DNA of 27,673 nucleotides from a virus (IMGVR_UViG_3300023210_000169:1-27673); one strand, 5' to 3'. Shown: positions 14,495 to 18,520, numbered from the stretch's first letter. A program made the numbers and translations. Notes: a model not told the origin generated them from the sequence alone.

Positions 14495-14701
14495 TCATTC
14501 TTTTTTATTAAAATATCTTCTAATTAAATAACCCCTTAATACACTAGCAATAAAAAAAACAAAAGTAATTATTACATTTTGCGATATGGTTACTGGAATG
14601 TTTAACAAAGGGTATATTATTAATTGAATAATAAAAGAGGTAACTAACCCTATTACGGTATTAGCTACGCTCTCTATTATACTGTGCTTCTTAGATTGCA
14701 T
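14495..14701 (-). CDS. Small two-helix membrane protein (DUF7220-like)
   Basis: The 68-residue protein has two predicted membrane helices (VIGLVTSFIIQLIIYPLL and VIITFVFFIASVLRGYLI) separated by an NIPVTISQN loop and followed by a basic C-terminus (RRYFNKKE). The pattern E(S)..N...G...S...Q...P.....S.NV.I...F...S..R.Y..RR.F is that of a widespread phage membrane protein family that I believe is Pfam DUF7220. Its start overlaps the stop of the ParB-like gene by one base, which ties it to the IbrA/IbrB block. The function is unknown. Confidence 0.7.
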   Translation of the reverse strand: MQSKKHSIIESVANTVIGLVTSFIIQLIIYPLLNIPVTISQNVIITFVFFIASVLRGYLIRRYFNKKE

Positions 14702-15369
14702 TAAGATACTTTTGTCATTGGCTCAGTTTCCCATGCTTTTGAAAACTCCTTATCTGCAAATAATTCTGTTAAACCCGATATTTGAGCTAATCTTAAAACT
14801 TCGTCAGCATCCATTCCTAATTCTTTAGATATTTTTTTATCAGACCAGTTTCTTTTTTTAAGGTCAACTACAATATCACTCATGCTTTCAACTCCATGCT
14901 TACCTCTAGCTCTGTTATGTCTTATTGTAGATGCTACCCTATCGTTAAGTCCTTTTTGACTTTCTCTTATTGTAACTACAGGTAAATATCCATGTACTCT
15001 TTTTTGAATATCTTCACATTCTTTACCTACTCTATTTCTGTGAAAGCCATCAATAACCTCTCTTGTATCTTCTCCATCTTTCATACTTACTATTGGCTGT
15101 GTATATCCATCACTCGCTATAGATAATCTTAGTAACTCCATTTCTGGAGGAGCTACACTATTAGGGTTGTAATCGTTTGCGTGTACTGTATCATTCTTTA
15201 CCCAAAGAACACAATCTACAGGCTCTGTATTAAATGGACTTTCGTTATGTAGCAACTTCTTAAATTCATTAATTATATGAACCTTGTTATCTAATGACGA
15301 ATATCTTAATGCTCTAATATCGTTTTGAGCATTACTTAAAATCTTTTCTTCTAATTCTGTTAATTTCAT
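14701..15369 (-). CDS. ParB-like nuclease/NTPase-domain protein (IbrB-like)
   Basis: This 222-residue protein carries a ParB N-terminal-type domain. TQPIV at 90-94, DGFHRNRVG at 107-115 (the equivalent of the GxRR motif) and TIRHNRARGKHGV at 148-160 follow the order of ParB boxes. A helix-turn-helix-like segment follows at 173-200 (NWSDKKISKELGMDADEV). It lies four bases after the PAPS-reductase-like gene, and the pair has the arrangement of IbrA/IbrB, which in Escherichia coli control eib expression by an unknown mechanism. ParB folds bind and hydrolyse CTP or ATP, and related domains occur in phage defence proteins. The biochemical role is not known. Plasmid-type partitioning is unlikely because no ParA is present. 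Confidence 0.75.
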   Translation of the reverse strand: MKLTELEEKILSNAQNDIRALRYSSLDNKVHIINEFKKLLHNESPFNTEPVDCVLWVKNDTVHANDYNPNSVAPPEMELLRLSIASDGYTQPIVSMKDGEDTREVIDGFHRNRVGKECEDIQKRVHGYLPVVTIRESQKGLNDRVASTIRHNRARGKHGVESMSDIVVDLKKRNWSDKKISKELGMDADEVLRLAQISGLTELFADKEFSKAWETEPMTKVS

Positions 15370-15373
15370 AATC

Positions 15374-16597
15374 TTAGTTTTTTACGTTTAAAAATTTATT
15401 TTCTGTTCTTTGTCTTTTCTTTAATTCTAGATATTTTTTATATGCTGCTGTTTTGTGTTGCGTAAAACCTAACCCTTTACACCAAAAATCATTTCTTAAT
15501 AAAGATTTACATATCCTTCTCCATGATGGCACTATTTTTTTACCCTCTAATAAATAAGGAGCTTCATCAGGAATACCTAGCGCATATCCTCTATCCTCCC
15601 ACCATGTTATAAATGTATATATCTTATTTAAAAAATGTTCTTTAGTTACGTCTGGAATACTATTTAAAAATAACATACTAAAAGACTCCCATGTGTGGTG
15701 GTCAGGTTTTGTTATTTTATTATACCCAGTTATTGAGCCACTTTCATTTATGTATAAAGCTCCTGAATTAGCTCCATTAACTCTTGCAACAACTTTCGCC
15801 CATGTTTCAGGCTCTATTAAATGGAATAACCATAAACCCCTTCTTTGGTCATCTCCGTATGGTTGGCAAATTCTTTGTTGATGTATTCCTAAACCTGCCT
15901 TATGCATAAGTTCATAAAGTTCATTATATCTCTTTTTTGGATTCCTTGCATGATATATCCAAATATCTTCTGTTCTCCAGTCGTAAACAGGATAAACATT
16001 AAATACATTATCAGTTACCTTAGTTGTATACTGTTTTGAATCATAGGTTATTTTAGAATCACTAGCTATTGTTCTGTATCTATTTAAACTTTCATCTGTC
16101 CTTATACCAACTAAACAAGCTGTTAATTCTCCTTGAGAATACCACTCCCCAAATTCAGGAACAAACTCCTCAAATTCCATTCCTCTAGTAAAAAATGGAA
16201 AGTAATTTTCATCACTTATAGAGTTATCAGGAAGCTCCCTTATCCAGTCTTTTTTCTTTTCTTTATCCCAACACATCCAGAATGGCTCATATACTGAAAC
16301 TGCATTTCTTAAATGAATCGGTAAACATATCCAATACAAATCTATTAAATGTTCATATTCTTTTATACATTCTTTTATATGGTCTATAGTTAGTTTGTAT
16401 TGACCTTCTAAATCAACAATCATTACAGCAATCTTTTGATTTCTTTTTTTTGCCTCATCCATTGCTAGGTGGAGCATAACTGTAGAGTCTTTACCCGCAC
16501 TAAAAGAAACGTATATTTTTTTAAAGTTATCAAATGTATATTCTATTCTTTCTTTAGTTGCTTGAAGCACTGTTTTATCTATATAATATTTAGGCAT
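15374..16597 (-). CDS. PAPS-reductase-family protein (IbrA-like, DUF3440)
   Basis: The 407-residue protein has a clear PP-loop (SAGKDSTVMLH, residues 33-43), which activates a substrate by adenylation, followed by VMIVDLEGQY. The C-terminal half, with the GIHQQRICQPYGDDQRRG segment (about 232-249) and a Trp-rich tail, matches the DUF3440 extension of IbrA. True PAPS reductases are shorter and have a redox Cys near the C-terminus, which I do not see here. DndC/SspD of DNA phosphorothioation belong to the same superfamily, so a sulfur or nucleotide chemistry role is possible, but no cysteine desulfurase or other Dnd gene is nearby. It overlaps the 136-residue gene by 19 bases and is coupled to the ParB-like gene. 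Confidence 0.8.
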   Translation of the reverse strand: MPKYYIDKTVLQATKERIEYTFDNFKKIYVSFSAGKDSTVMLHLAMDEAKKRNQKIAVMIVDLEGQYKLTIDHIKECIKEYEHLIDLYWICLPIHLRNAVSVYEPFWMCWDKEKKKDWIRELPDNSISDENYFPFFTRGMEFEEFVPEFGEWYSQGELTACLVGIRTDESLNRYRTIASDSKITYDSKQYTTKVTDNVFNVYPVYDWRTEDIWIYHARNPKKRYNELYELMHKAGLGIHQQRICQPYGDDQRRGLWLFHLIEPETWAKVVARVNGANSGALYINESGSITGYNKITKPDHHTWESFSMLFLNSIPDVTKEHFLNKIYTFITWWEDRGYALGIPDEAPYLLEGKKIVPSWRRICKSLLRNDFWCKGLGFTQHKTAAYKKYLELKKRQRTENKFLNVKN

Positions 16598-16989
16598 AGC
16601 TGTATTTTTTTATTGTTATTATCCCAATTACTTATAACTTCTTTAGCTAAATCATTTGACCTATCCTTAACTTCTTCTGTTAAATGACTCCATGCTTCCA
16701 TTGTAACGGTTGATGGAACTCCTGCATATAAGCAACAAGCTCCTTGTCCAATATACGCTATCTTATTCATAGATGGATTAGTTAAATTTTGTTCGCATGA
16801 ATACTTCCATGTTTCTATAACTTTATTCATATACTTTTTTGTTAGCTTTTCGTCATTAAACATTTCAATAGACTTAAGTAGCATATTGTCTTTGTCTGCT
16901 CCTGTGCAATTATTATAGAACCCATGCTTATAATCTTCCCATAATGTATATGGGTGATAAACTCTTTTAATGTTTGGTTTTTCGTTCAT
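16579..16989 (-). CDS. Conserved protein of unknown function associated with IbrA/IbrB (136 aa)
   Basis: This 136-residue protein contains a VYHPYTLWEDYKHGFY block at 10-25, an SCEQNLTNPSMNKIAYIGQGACCLYAGVPS segment (given as parts SCEQNLTN and AYIGQGACC, about 69-93), and TMEAWSHLTEE after it. I recognise the combination of HPY..WEDYK.G.Y with SCE.NLTN as a phage protein often located beside PAPS-reductase-like and ParB-like genes. The length fits that family. It has no catalytic signature that I can name. Its end overlaps the start of the IbrA-like gene by 19 bases, so the three genes form one expression block. A substrate-binding or accessory role in the unknown IbrA pathway is inferred from linkage alone. 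Confidence 0.75.
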   Translation of the reverse strand: MNEKPNIKRVYHPYTLWEDYKHGFYNNCTGADKDNMLLKSIEMFNDEKLTKKYMNKVIETWKYSCEQNLTNPSMNKIAYIGQGACCLYAGVPSTVTMEAWSHLTEEVKDRSNDLAKEVISNWDNNNKKIQLCLNII

Positions 16990-17073
16990 AGTTTTTAATT
17001 TTAGTTTATATCTGCAATTTTAAATAGAATATTTTACTCTACCTAATTTTTTAATAGCTTTTTTGTTTTATCC

Positions 17074-17325
17074 TTATAAATTACTTTCATTTCTATCAAT
17101 ATAAGCAGTAAACCCTAGAGCTTTTAGTTCTTTTATTCTATATTCCTGTAGTTTAGATACTACTCCCTTAGCTGCTTTCACTTCTATAAATATAGGTTCT
17201 TCTCCTTTCTTTAAAGCTAGTAGGTCTGGAATGCCTGACTTATTAGTCTTAATTAAATTCAAAACATAATACCCCCTGCTTTCAAAATCCTTAATTATCT
17301 TTCTTTGGTATTTCGATTCTAACAT
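17074..17325 (-). CDS. VRR-NUC domain nuclease
   Basis: The 83-residue protein is a minimal VRR-NUC nuclease, a family of PD-(D/E)XK enzymes that includes Holliday-junction or flap-cleaving phage nucleases. Visible active-site elements are GIPDLL at 31-36 (Asp34), FIEVKAAKG at 46-54 (Glu48 and Lys50) and the following KLQEYR helix (Gln60). The start overlaps the upstream helicase gene by 35 bases. A role in branch resolution or debranching of replication concatemers before packaging is likely by family. About 85 bases without a gene follow, in which I see no clear signal. Confidence 0.9.
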   Translation of the reverse strand: MLESKYQRKIIKDFESRGYYVLNLIKTNKSGIPDLLALKKGEEPIFIEVKAAKGVVSKLQEYRIKELKALGFTAYIDRNESNL

Positions 17326-18520
17326 CTTTTATAAAAGTTTGAGTTGTATAATTCTTTTTATTCATTACAGCCTTGTATATTTTATCTTCTATCCCTCCAA
17401 TACTGAACAACCAATATACAATATTATTGCTTCTTTTTATAGTTGTCATTCTATCTCTAGCTTGCCAGTAACTAACTGCGCTAAAATCTATATTGTACAT
17501 GATAATAAAATCTGCTTTAGATAGGTTAGTCCCTTCTCTACCGCTTACAATCTGTAAAGCTATATGTTTATCCGTTGTATTGAACTCCTCTATATCCTGA
17601 GTGACATCTAGCACAGACTTAATAGCGTTCAGCTCCTCCTTAAATTTATAAAATATAGCTAGTTTCTTACCTTCAAAGTTCTTTTTAATATACTCTACTT
17701 TTGAATAATCAATAACTTTACTATTCCCACTTTCAAATTTAACCGTACCACTATAAAGCTGATGTAGTTTACTCATTAATTTTACTCCAGTATCTGCAAG
17801 TAATACCTCGTCTTTTCCCTCTACTACTAAATCCTTTTTAAGTCTGTTCGCTAATTTAATAGTGCTTTCTTTTATTGGTACTCTTAGTATTTTCTCTTGA
17901 ATATTAGAGTTAAATCCTGCTTCTTTTTGTGTATAAGTTAAGAGTAAAGGTTTAATGTATTCTTTAATCTTTGAGTAGTCTACAATAGAATAGTCTTTAG
18001 CTTCTCCGTATGACGTGTAAATAGTTGCAGGAGTTCCAAATACTTTATGCCAATTATAGAAGCTCCTGAACGCTCTAAACGGTGTCTTGTGGCTAACATA
18101 TAATTGATGGTATATCTGAGCGTTTGACTCAGGTAACAGCGTTCCAGTCATTAGAATCAAATCCTTTGTTATGTGCTTAGATAATTCTTTGACTCTCTTA
18201 GAAGGCTTTGGATAAGCTCCTAGTCCATGACTCTCATCTGCTATAACTAAGTCGAATCTACCATTAACTTTATGTAAAGATTCGTAATTGATAACTGTTA
18301 AGTTATAGGTGTGTCCTGCTGTTTTATAGTCTGATTCAATACTTGAGATAGCTTTTTTCTTAGTTACAAACAAAACATTGTTATAGTTCCTGCTTATATC
18401 TAAAGCTATGTGAGTCTTGCCTGTTCTTACTTCAAAGTTTAGAATCAATATACCCTTTTTTCTCAGTATATCAAAACCATCTTTTGAGGCTTTCTTTTGG
18501 TATTCTCTTAGCTCAAACAT
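17291..18520 (-). CDS. SF2 DEAD-box-like DNA helicase
   Basis: The 409-residue protein is a superfamily 2 helicase of the phage SNF2/RecG-like size class. Motifs seen in order are a Q-like N-terminus (LREYQKKA at 3-10), motif I VRTGKT at 31-36, motif II DESH at 95-98, motif III MTGT at 124-127, motif V VSGREGTNLS and motif VI YWQARDRMTTIKR in the C-terminal half. The set is complete, so an active ATP-dependent translocase or helicase is expected. Its stop region overlaps the VRR-NUC gene by 35 bases, and helicase plus VRR-NUC pairs are a common phage replication unit. It starts at the ATG that overlaps the 60-residue gene by eight bases. Confidence 0.9.
   Translation of the reverse strand: MFELREYQKKASKDGFDILRKKGILILNFEVRTGKTHIALDISRNYNNVLFVTKKKAISSIESDYKTAGHTYNLTVINYESLHKVNGRFDLVIADESHGLGAYPKPSKRVKELSKHITKDLILMTGTLLPESNAQIYHQLYVSHKTPFRAFRSFYNWHKVFGTPATIYTSYGEAKDYSIVDYSKIKEYIKPLLLTYTQKEAGFNSNIQEKILRVPIKESTIKLANRLKKDLVVEGKDEVLLADTGVKLMSKLHQLYSGTVKFESGNSKVIDYSKVEYIKKNFEGKKLAIFYKFKEELNAIKSVLDVTQDIEEFNTTDKHIALQIVSGREGTNLSKADFIIMYNIDFSAVSYWQARDRMTTIKRSNNIVYWLFSIGGIEDKIYKAVMNKKNYTTQTFIKDVRIEIPKKDN

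Follow-up and report, generated by a model that had tools for sequence, protein, structure and literature searches.

The phage p136-IbrA-IbrB cassette, a candidate DNA-modification system that exchanges with DNA methyltransferase genes

IbrA and IbrB of Escherichia coli prophages, like YbdN and YbdM of strain K-12, consist of a PAPS_reductase and DUF3440 protein followed directly by a ParB-domain protein. The pair is widespread and unexplained in phages and prophages; its members are annotated as PAPS reductase or chromosome-partition protein, and our literature search for IbrA/IbrB function returned nothing but annotations and a reading as regulators. Here we analyzed such a pair in IMGVR_UViG_3300023210_000169:1-27673, an IMG/VR virus fragment of 27,673 nt (the window, meaning the whole stretch), in which a third gene, encoding the 136-residue protein p136, accompanies ibrA and ibrB. 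Enterobacterial IbrAB loci (L177 from Enterobacteriaceae B14 and L196 from Hafnia) lack p136, whereas the window cassette is phage-borne, contains p136 and occupies a slot that is also used by DNA methyltransferases. We propose, with a probability of about 0.6, that p136-IbrA-IbrB is a mobile phage DNA-modification cassette (for self-marking or anti-restriction) that is functionally interchangeable with DNA methyltransferases.

Several better described systems resemble this locus in part. Dpd and the phage DpdA-QueCDE pathway likewise combine a ParB-fold protein with a base-modifying core that includes a PP-loop enzyme (QueC), but a scan of the window proteins revealed neither DpdA/TGT nor QueC, QueD, QueE or FolE; since this stretch is a fragment, any claim of absence from the whole genome is limited. 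DndC, SspD and BrxP share the PP-loop fold with IbrA, and a DndC-like function for IbrA/IbrB has been the subject of scattered earlier speculation (PMC8092301). CasCysH of type IV-B CRISPR is, like IbrA, a cysteine-less PP-loop protein on mobile elements (PMC8175902), but it is shorter (217-258 aa here) and encoded by a separate gene in the loci found. Phage cassettes of a helicase with an N6/N4 methyltransferase, or of ParB with Mom, are found at this position ahead of DUF7220 in sister phages or relatives, and their helicases have a parallel in the superfamily 2 (SF2) helicases directly before IbrA in several loci. These cassettes use S-adenosylmethionine-dependent methyltransferase or Mom chemistry, in contrast to the PP-loop chemistry expected of IbrA.

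A three-gene cassette in a slot shared with methyltransferase genes

A reading of the window from its sequence only had described four translationally coupled genes, and all four open reading frames (ORFs) are present on the minus strand at 14495-16989: p136 (16579..16989), IbrA (15374..16597), IbrB (14701..15369) and a two-helix membrane protein of the DUF7220 family (14495..14701; PF23858, E 7e-26). p136 and IbrA overlap by 19 bp, and IbrB and DUF7220 by 1 bp. Coupling is plausible at all three junctions, although IbrA and IbrB do not overlap but are separated by a 4-bp gap.

Co-occurrence was counted in the best 80 phage loci of an IbrA-seeded IMG/VR scan and in 80 bacterial and archaeal loci retrieved with IbrA as seed from 84,980 species genomes (best-segment identity 43-65%). 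IbrB adjoins IbrA in every one of these loci (80/80 and 80/80, together 160/160). p136 occurs with IbrA in 78/80 of the phage loci, usually overlapping it by 8-19 bp. In the reverse direction IbrA was present in 70/71 p136-seeded loci, the sole exception lying on a contig that ends 95 bp after p136; these 71 newly cut loci are not independent, as many of their contigs overlap the IbrA-seeded set. Genes that flank the block in the window were scarce in the 80 phage loci (terminase large subunit 9/80, primase 7/80, helicase 5/80, DUF7220 3/80), counts that are lower bounds because many IMG/VR contigs are short. The near-constant presence of p136 and IbrB, set against the scarcity of flanking genes, indicates that the cassette travels and is more than the property of one phage lineage. 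The gene order varies among loci (p136-A-B, B-p136-A or A-B-p136), and L181 encodes a 382-aa fusion of IbrB and p136, followed 12 bp later by IbrA; this shuffling and the fusion argue for a functional link beyond inherited order. The functional unit is therefore three genes, p136, IbrA and IbrB, while DUF7220 belongs to the phage backbone and lies outside the cassette at the border of the slot. The conserved four-gene linkage claimed earlier is borne out for p136 and IbrB; it fails for DUF7220, which stays when the other three genes are exchanged.

This exchange was followed at base level in sister phages taken from DUF7220-seeded loci (n = 61; 59 readable upstream and 57 downstream). Aligned by blastn, L254, L255 and L261 share 86-97% DNA identity by segment with the window on both sides of the slot; the similarity stops at 16980 and resumes at 14711. 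Between the flanks all three sisters encode, in place of the exchanged segment 14711..16980, a helicase and an N6_N4_Mtase (Pfam, 3.5e-25), which in L254 are 458 aa and 340 aa long, respectively. The helicase, VRR nuclease, DUF7220 and sigma-like proteins of L254 and L261 are ~97% identical to those of the window, their terminase large subunits (TerL) 92-97%, and none of the three cassette genes lies in the stretch of these two sisters that was compared. The leader that separates VRR_NUC from the cassette (16990..17073, minus strand) is common to all slot versions compared, being ~95-99% identical upstream of the methyltransferase cassettes of L254, L261 and L267 and partly so upstream of IbrAB in L262. 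The slot of L262 holds a different p136-IbrA-IbrB, with 32% (IbrA), 51% (IbrB) and 56% (p136) identity to the window proteins, which points to independent acquisition at the same place. Other sister contigs have a helicase-methyltransferase fusion in the slot. Altogether, the 14 resolvable sister contigs (DUF7220 ~94% or more identical) carry a methyltransferase in nine cases, IbrA/IbrB genes in five and anything else in none; some DUF7220 loci come from near-identical phages, so that the numbers count contigs and not independent events.

DUF7220 is 94-97% identical in the sisters whatever the slot contains. A methyltransferase or Mom gene lies one or two genes upstream of it in 31/59 loci, and IbrB in four more, compared with 3/57 downstream; L288MT was left out of the upstream tally because its methyltransferase call lacks Pfam support. 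The slot variants near DUF7220 include Mom (3.5e-51), Dam, a C5-methyltransferase and a ParB-methyltransferase pair, and a more distant relative has ParB with Mom. The distribution of DUF7220 rules it out as a partner of the cassette. In 35/59 loci the gene comes right after genes for a phage DNA methyltransferase, Mom or IbrAB, and its role may be linked to DNA modification.

A second example comes from the cluster B mycobacteriophages, in which the genes left of TerL are mostly modification genes; the DNA of Rosebush contains dPreQ0 at about 28% of G, and no 7-deazaguanine was found in that of Orion (PMC6884629). Subcluster B3 members have an IbrA/IbrB pair beside the terminase gene, at the position that the DpdA-QueCDE cassette takes in B2 relatives. 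LizLemon (Rosebushvirus), which is classed in the Rosebush species and stood in for Rosebush in our comparison, encodes gp1 ParB, a DpdA-like queuine tRNA-ribosyltransferase, QueC, QueD, QueE, FolE and TerL, and related arrangements are found in Heath (ParB, DpdA-like) and Knocker (ParB, FolE, DpdA-like, QueC/D/E, FolE). In Obutu (Pipefishvirus), which we take to belong to subcluster B3, the same slot encodes ParB, two small genes, a PAPS-reductase-like protein (gp4, 92 bits against the IbrA profile) and a further ParB (gp5, 99 bits against the IbrB profile), followed by TerL. Obutu gp1 ParB shares 49-56% identity (128-139 aa aligned) with the ParBs encoded next to DpdA, and so a related accessory ParB goes with either a known DNA-base-exchange enzyme or IbrA/IbrB. 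The Obutu-type IbrA has no significant DUF3440 match, which marks it as a diverged subfamily; related diverged IbrA genes adjoin methyltransferases in Arthrobacter and Bacillus phages, and one has glycosyl-, acetyl- and methyltransferases as neighbors in a Microbacterium phage. IbrA and IbrB thus share their slot with known DNA-modification genes both in the sisters of the window and in cluster B mycobacteriophages. IbrA/IbrB is already known as a pair; as far as the literature searched shows, p136 as its third member, the base-level exchange with methyltransferase cassettes, the slot and related ParB held in common with the dPreQ0 cassette and the presence of IbrAB in type IV-B CRISPR loci are new.

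Conserved features of IbrA, IbrB and p136

The family assignments made earlier hold. IbrA consists of a PP-loop ATP-pyrophosphatase domain (PF01507 PAPS_reduct, 53 bits, E 4e-14) and DUF3440 (PF11922, 117 bits, E 1e-33), both matches being above cut-off, and matches phrog_2302 with E 4e-84. Its PP-loop S33-A-G-K-D-S38 falls at 16484..16501 on the minus strand (coordinates of motifs are by arithmetic). Highly diverged IbrA relatives (15/15) all retain S33, G35, K36, D37 and S38, and likewise D62, E64, R120, R166, E169, R173, P203, D206, W207 and D211, and further Y224, Y228, R242 and P263. No cysteine is conserved across these 15 relatives, the best column having Cys in 8/15. A conserved PP-loop set without a cysteine fits an ATP pyrophosphatase and speaks against a persulfide or Fe-S route; the same reasoning from absent cysteines has been applied to the type IV-B CRISPR CysH-like protein (PMC8175902). 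Sulfur transfer via C244 was considered and rejected: this residue was at first Cys in 81/81 sequences, but the set had been fetched with a pattern containing RICQPYGD, and the invariance is a selection artefact, with Ser or Ala in most of the distant IbrA members of the diverse set. The equivalog profiles for DndC (TIGR03183, 28.5 bits against a cut-off of 290.4) and CysH PAPS reductase (TIGR02057, 26.3 bits against 254.2) were each missed about tenfold, and the TilS and TtcA profiles gave weak matches far under their cut-offs.

IbrB matches phrog_2159 (E 6e-72) and, weakly and below the cut-off of 26.3, Pfam ParB_N (19.5 bits). Its AlphaFold2 (AF2) model has a pLDDT of 83 and matches Noc/ParB/KorB in Foldseek (E 2.6e-7), so that the ParB-like assignment stands on phrog_2159 and the fold. 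In the model the N-terminal ParB domain resembles sulfiredoxin and SbnI, and the C-terminal domain is a helix-turn-helix. The motif D107-G-F-H-R111 (15037..15051, minus strand) looks like a nucleotide site; D107, G108, H110 and R111 are invariant in 26 sequences and at least 95% kept in 81. By analogy with ParB, sulfiredoxin and SbnI, the motif may bind a nucleotide.

p136 matches no family in the Pfam and PHROG scans, and its AF2 model (pLDDT 92.5) is compact and all-helical, with no fold match in the PDB. Searched against viral models, the structure had a single significant match, to an unnamed protein of 116 aa with 38% identity. The family is marked by the motif W..SCEHNL[TS]N.s.NriAyiGqAAC..P..vTm.aW; in the core S64-C65-E66-x-N68-L69 (16783..16800, minus strand), S64 is invariant and C65, E66, N68 and L69 are at least 90% conserved in an alignment of 38 p136 sequences. 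p136 recurs beside very distant IbrA. A collection of cultured phages contained six p136 matches: XCL1123, Gaia, Amjad_SA and Mwe-JY13, which were read in detail and all have IbrA nearby, a second Gaia record, and Nebkiss, with matching local genes around p136. A role as RNA methyltransferase, raised by a weak match to PF05971 (18 bits, cut-off 23), was ruled out by the all-helical model and the lack of a PDB relative.

Possible functions of the cassette

The sequence-only reading had suggested DNA modification or counter-defence, and this idea gains independent positional support from the exchange with DNA methyltransferase cassettes and the DpdA/QueCDE slot; its sulfur part gains no such support. 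We favor DNA modification because of the slot exchange with methyltransferase and Mom genes, the displacement in the dPreQ0 slot, the neighbors of IbrA and the DNA-loader fold of IbrB. The data establish the gene unit, the conserved PP-loop and ParB motifs, the folds or family memberships and the positional exchange, whereas DNA as the substrate, the ATP chemistry, a nucleotide switch and the role of p136 are inferences. In the most likely mechanism, IbrB would load on phage DNA under nucleotide control and recruit IbrA. IbrA would then spend ATP, with release of pyrophosphate, on activating an oxygen of a base, which might already carry a modification, so that another group could take the place of this oxygen. 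p136, a small helical protein, might assist IbrB as an adaptor or specificity subunit, and in other lineages a GNAT acyltransferase could take the accessory place. More tentatively, IbrA-IbrB with p136 or GNAT might, guided by a nucleotide-gated ParB-type loader, introduce a DNA modification not described so far through PP-loop chemistry that needs no cysteine; such a system would be spread over bacterial phages, Asgard elements and methanogens, and the type IV-B CysH-like protein may be a relative with related chemistry.

Several observations weigh against a DNA-modification cassette. Its support is guilt by association, which cannot name the substrate, and p136 occurs in merely 5/80 bacterial and archaeal IbrA loci, being absent from 75/80. 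L172 has IbrAB and a helicase related to the methyltransferase-partner helicase within a few kb, so exclusion between the two cassette types may not be strict. In Streptococcus thermophilus phage D4276 a helicase-IbrA-IbrB set lies in an accessory locus beside AcrIIA5, and four related phages have small uncharacterized ORFs and no methyltransferase at that locus, which leaves the slot comparison neutral there. The E. coli pair has been characterized as co-activating prophage genes, and ybdNM of K-12 is controlled by CitR, which is a regulatory setting. The latter two points, together with the ParB/Noc fold and helix-turn-helix of IbrB, suit a transcription-regulating pair, in which IbrB would be the regulator and IbrA would give a nucleotide-derived signal or modify a protein, switching phage or host genes. 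We consider this unlikely, since it leaves unexplained the precise exchange with methyltransferase, Mom and dPreQ0 cassettes and since the E. coli observation would also fit a DNA modification, which could in itself affect transcription. Moreover, as the enterobacterial IbrAB loci lack p136, the E. coli phenotype may not fully transfer to the three-gene phage version.

The slot contents also bear on counter-defence directed at a nucleotide or small molecule, for example a signaling nucleotide or the NTP pool, and not at DNA. Nucleotides are used by PP-loop and ParB/Srx-fold proteins, SbnI and sulfiredoxin, ParB-fold relatives that IbrB matches, act by phosphorylating a small or a protein substrate, and the D4276 locus is near an AcrIIA5 gene. 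We give this reading a slim chance, as all resolved sister phages hold DNA-modifying enzymes or IbrAB in the slot and the C-terminal domain of IbrB is of a DNA-binding type. Many PP-loop enzymes act on tRNA, and the weak TilS and TtcA matches could hint at tRNA or RNA modification; with such scores, a partner of ParB/helix-turn-helix type in place of an RNA-binding one, and exchange partners that are DNA enzymes, we find it improbable. The sulfur chemistry proposed earlier, in which a host cysteine desulfurase would supply the sulfur for phosphorothioation or some other sulfur-based change to DNA, can point to weak PADLOC and NCBIfam matches that place IbrA in the DndC/SspD superfamily, and to DndB, also a ParB-superfamily protein (PMC12839542). 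It appears very improbable given the absence of a conserved cysteine and the DndC score. No desulfurase, DndA/B/D/E or SspA/B/C was seen among the window proteins scanned, within the limits of a fragment.

Should the cassette indeed modify DNA, many auxiliary sulfur-metabolism annotations in viromes would be wrong and a widespread DNA-marking system would have been overlooked. The positional exchange with methyltransferase, Mom and dPreQ0 genes makes the function directly testable on culturable phages. The analysis also provides a partner protein, p136, and a starting point for explaining the CysH-like protein found in type IV-B CRISPR systems.

Related loci and neighboring genes

The 80 genome loci span many bacterial phyla, Asgard archaea and one methanogen. 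A GNAT-like gene lies between IbrA and IbrB in ten loci, nine bacterial or archaeal (L180, L183, L184, L202, L231, L233, L237, L240, L242) and one viral (L062), the hosts of the insert being Actinobacteria, Deltaproteobacteria, Clostridia, a methanogen and a phage. In L202 it matches Acetyltransf_1 with E 5e-6, and this profile matches in 16/80 loci, in some at other positions. IbrA-IbrB is thus the core, and p136 or GNAT is accessory. In the phages L006, L021 and L042 the place between IbrA and IbrB holds, by eye, a conserved 171-aa PD-(D/E)XK (Cas4/YqaJ-like) nuclease-like protein.

An SF2 helicase directly precedes or overlaps IbrA in about ten loci. A distinct clade of these helicases stands just before IbrA in L188, L189, L190, L203, L223, L234, L239 and Streptococcus phage D4276 (L248); the helicase-IbrA pairs, often with a 4-bp overlap, mirror the helicase-methyltransferase pairs of the sister phages.

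In the window nearly all large ORFs are on the minus strand. The block follows recombination and replication genes (exonuclease, Erf, SSB, primase), and past it lie a sigma-like regulator, the small and large terminase subunits and structural genes. Its upstream flank (17074..18520, minus strand), constant in the sisters, consists of an SF2 helicase (17291-18520) and a VRR_NUC nuclease (17074-17325), both assigned by Pfam.

A type IV-B-like CRISPR operon encloses or immediately adjoins IbrA-IbrB in 4/80 genome loci, with genes for Csf1, Cas11, Csf2 and Csf3, usually with a CysH-like PP-loop protein (L226, 3918-9627; L185, 1435-6505; L240, 4388-9983; L195, 2608-7864). The taxa concerned are Alkalithermobacter, Thermoanaerobacter, Methanobrevibacter and a Heimdallarchaeote, and in L226 IbrAB stands between the cysH-like gene and csf3.

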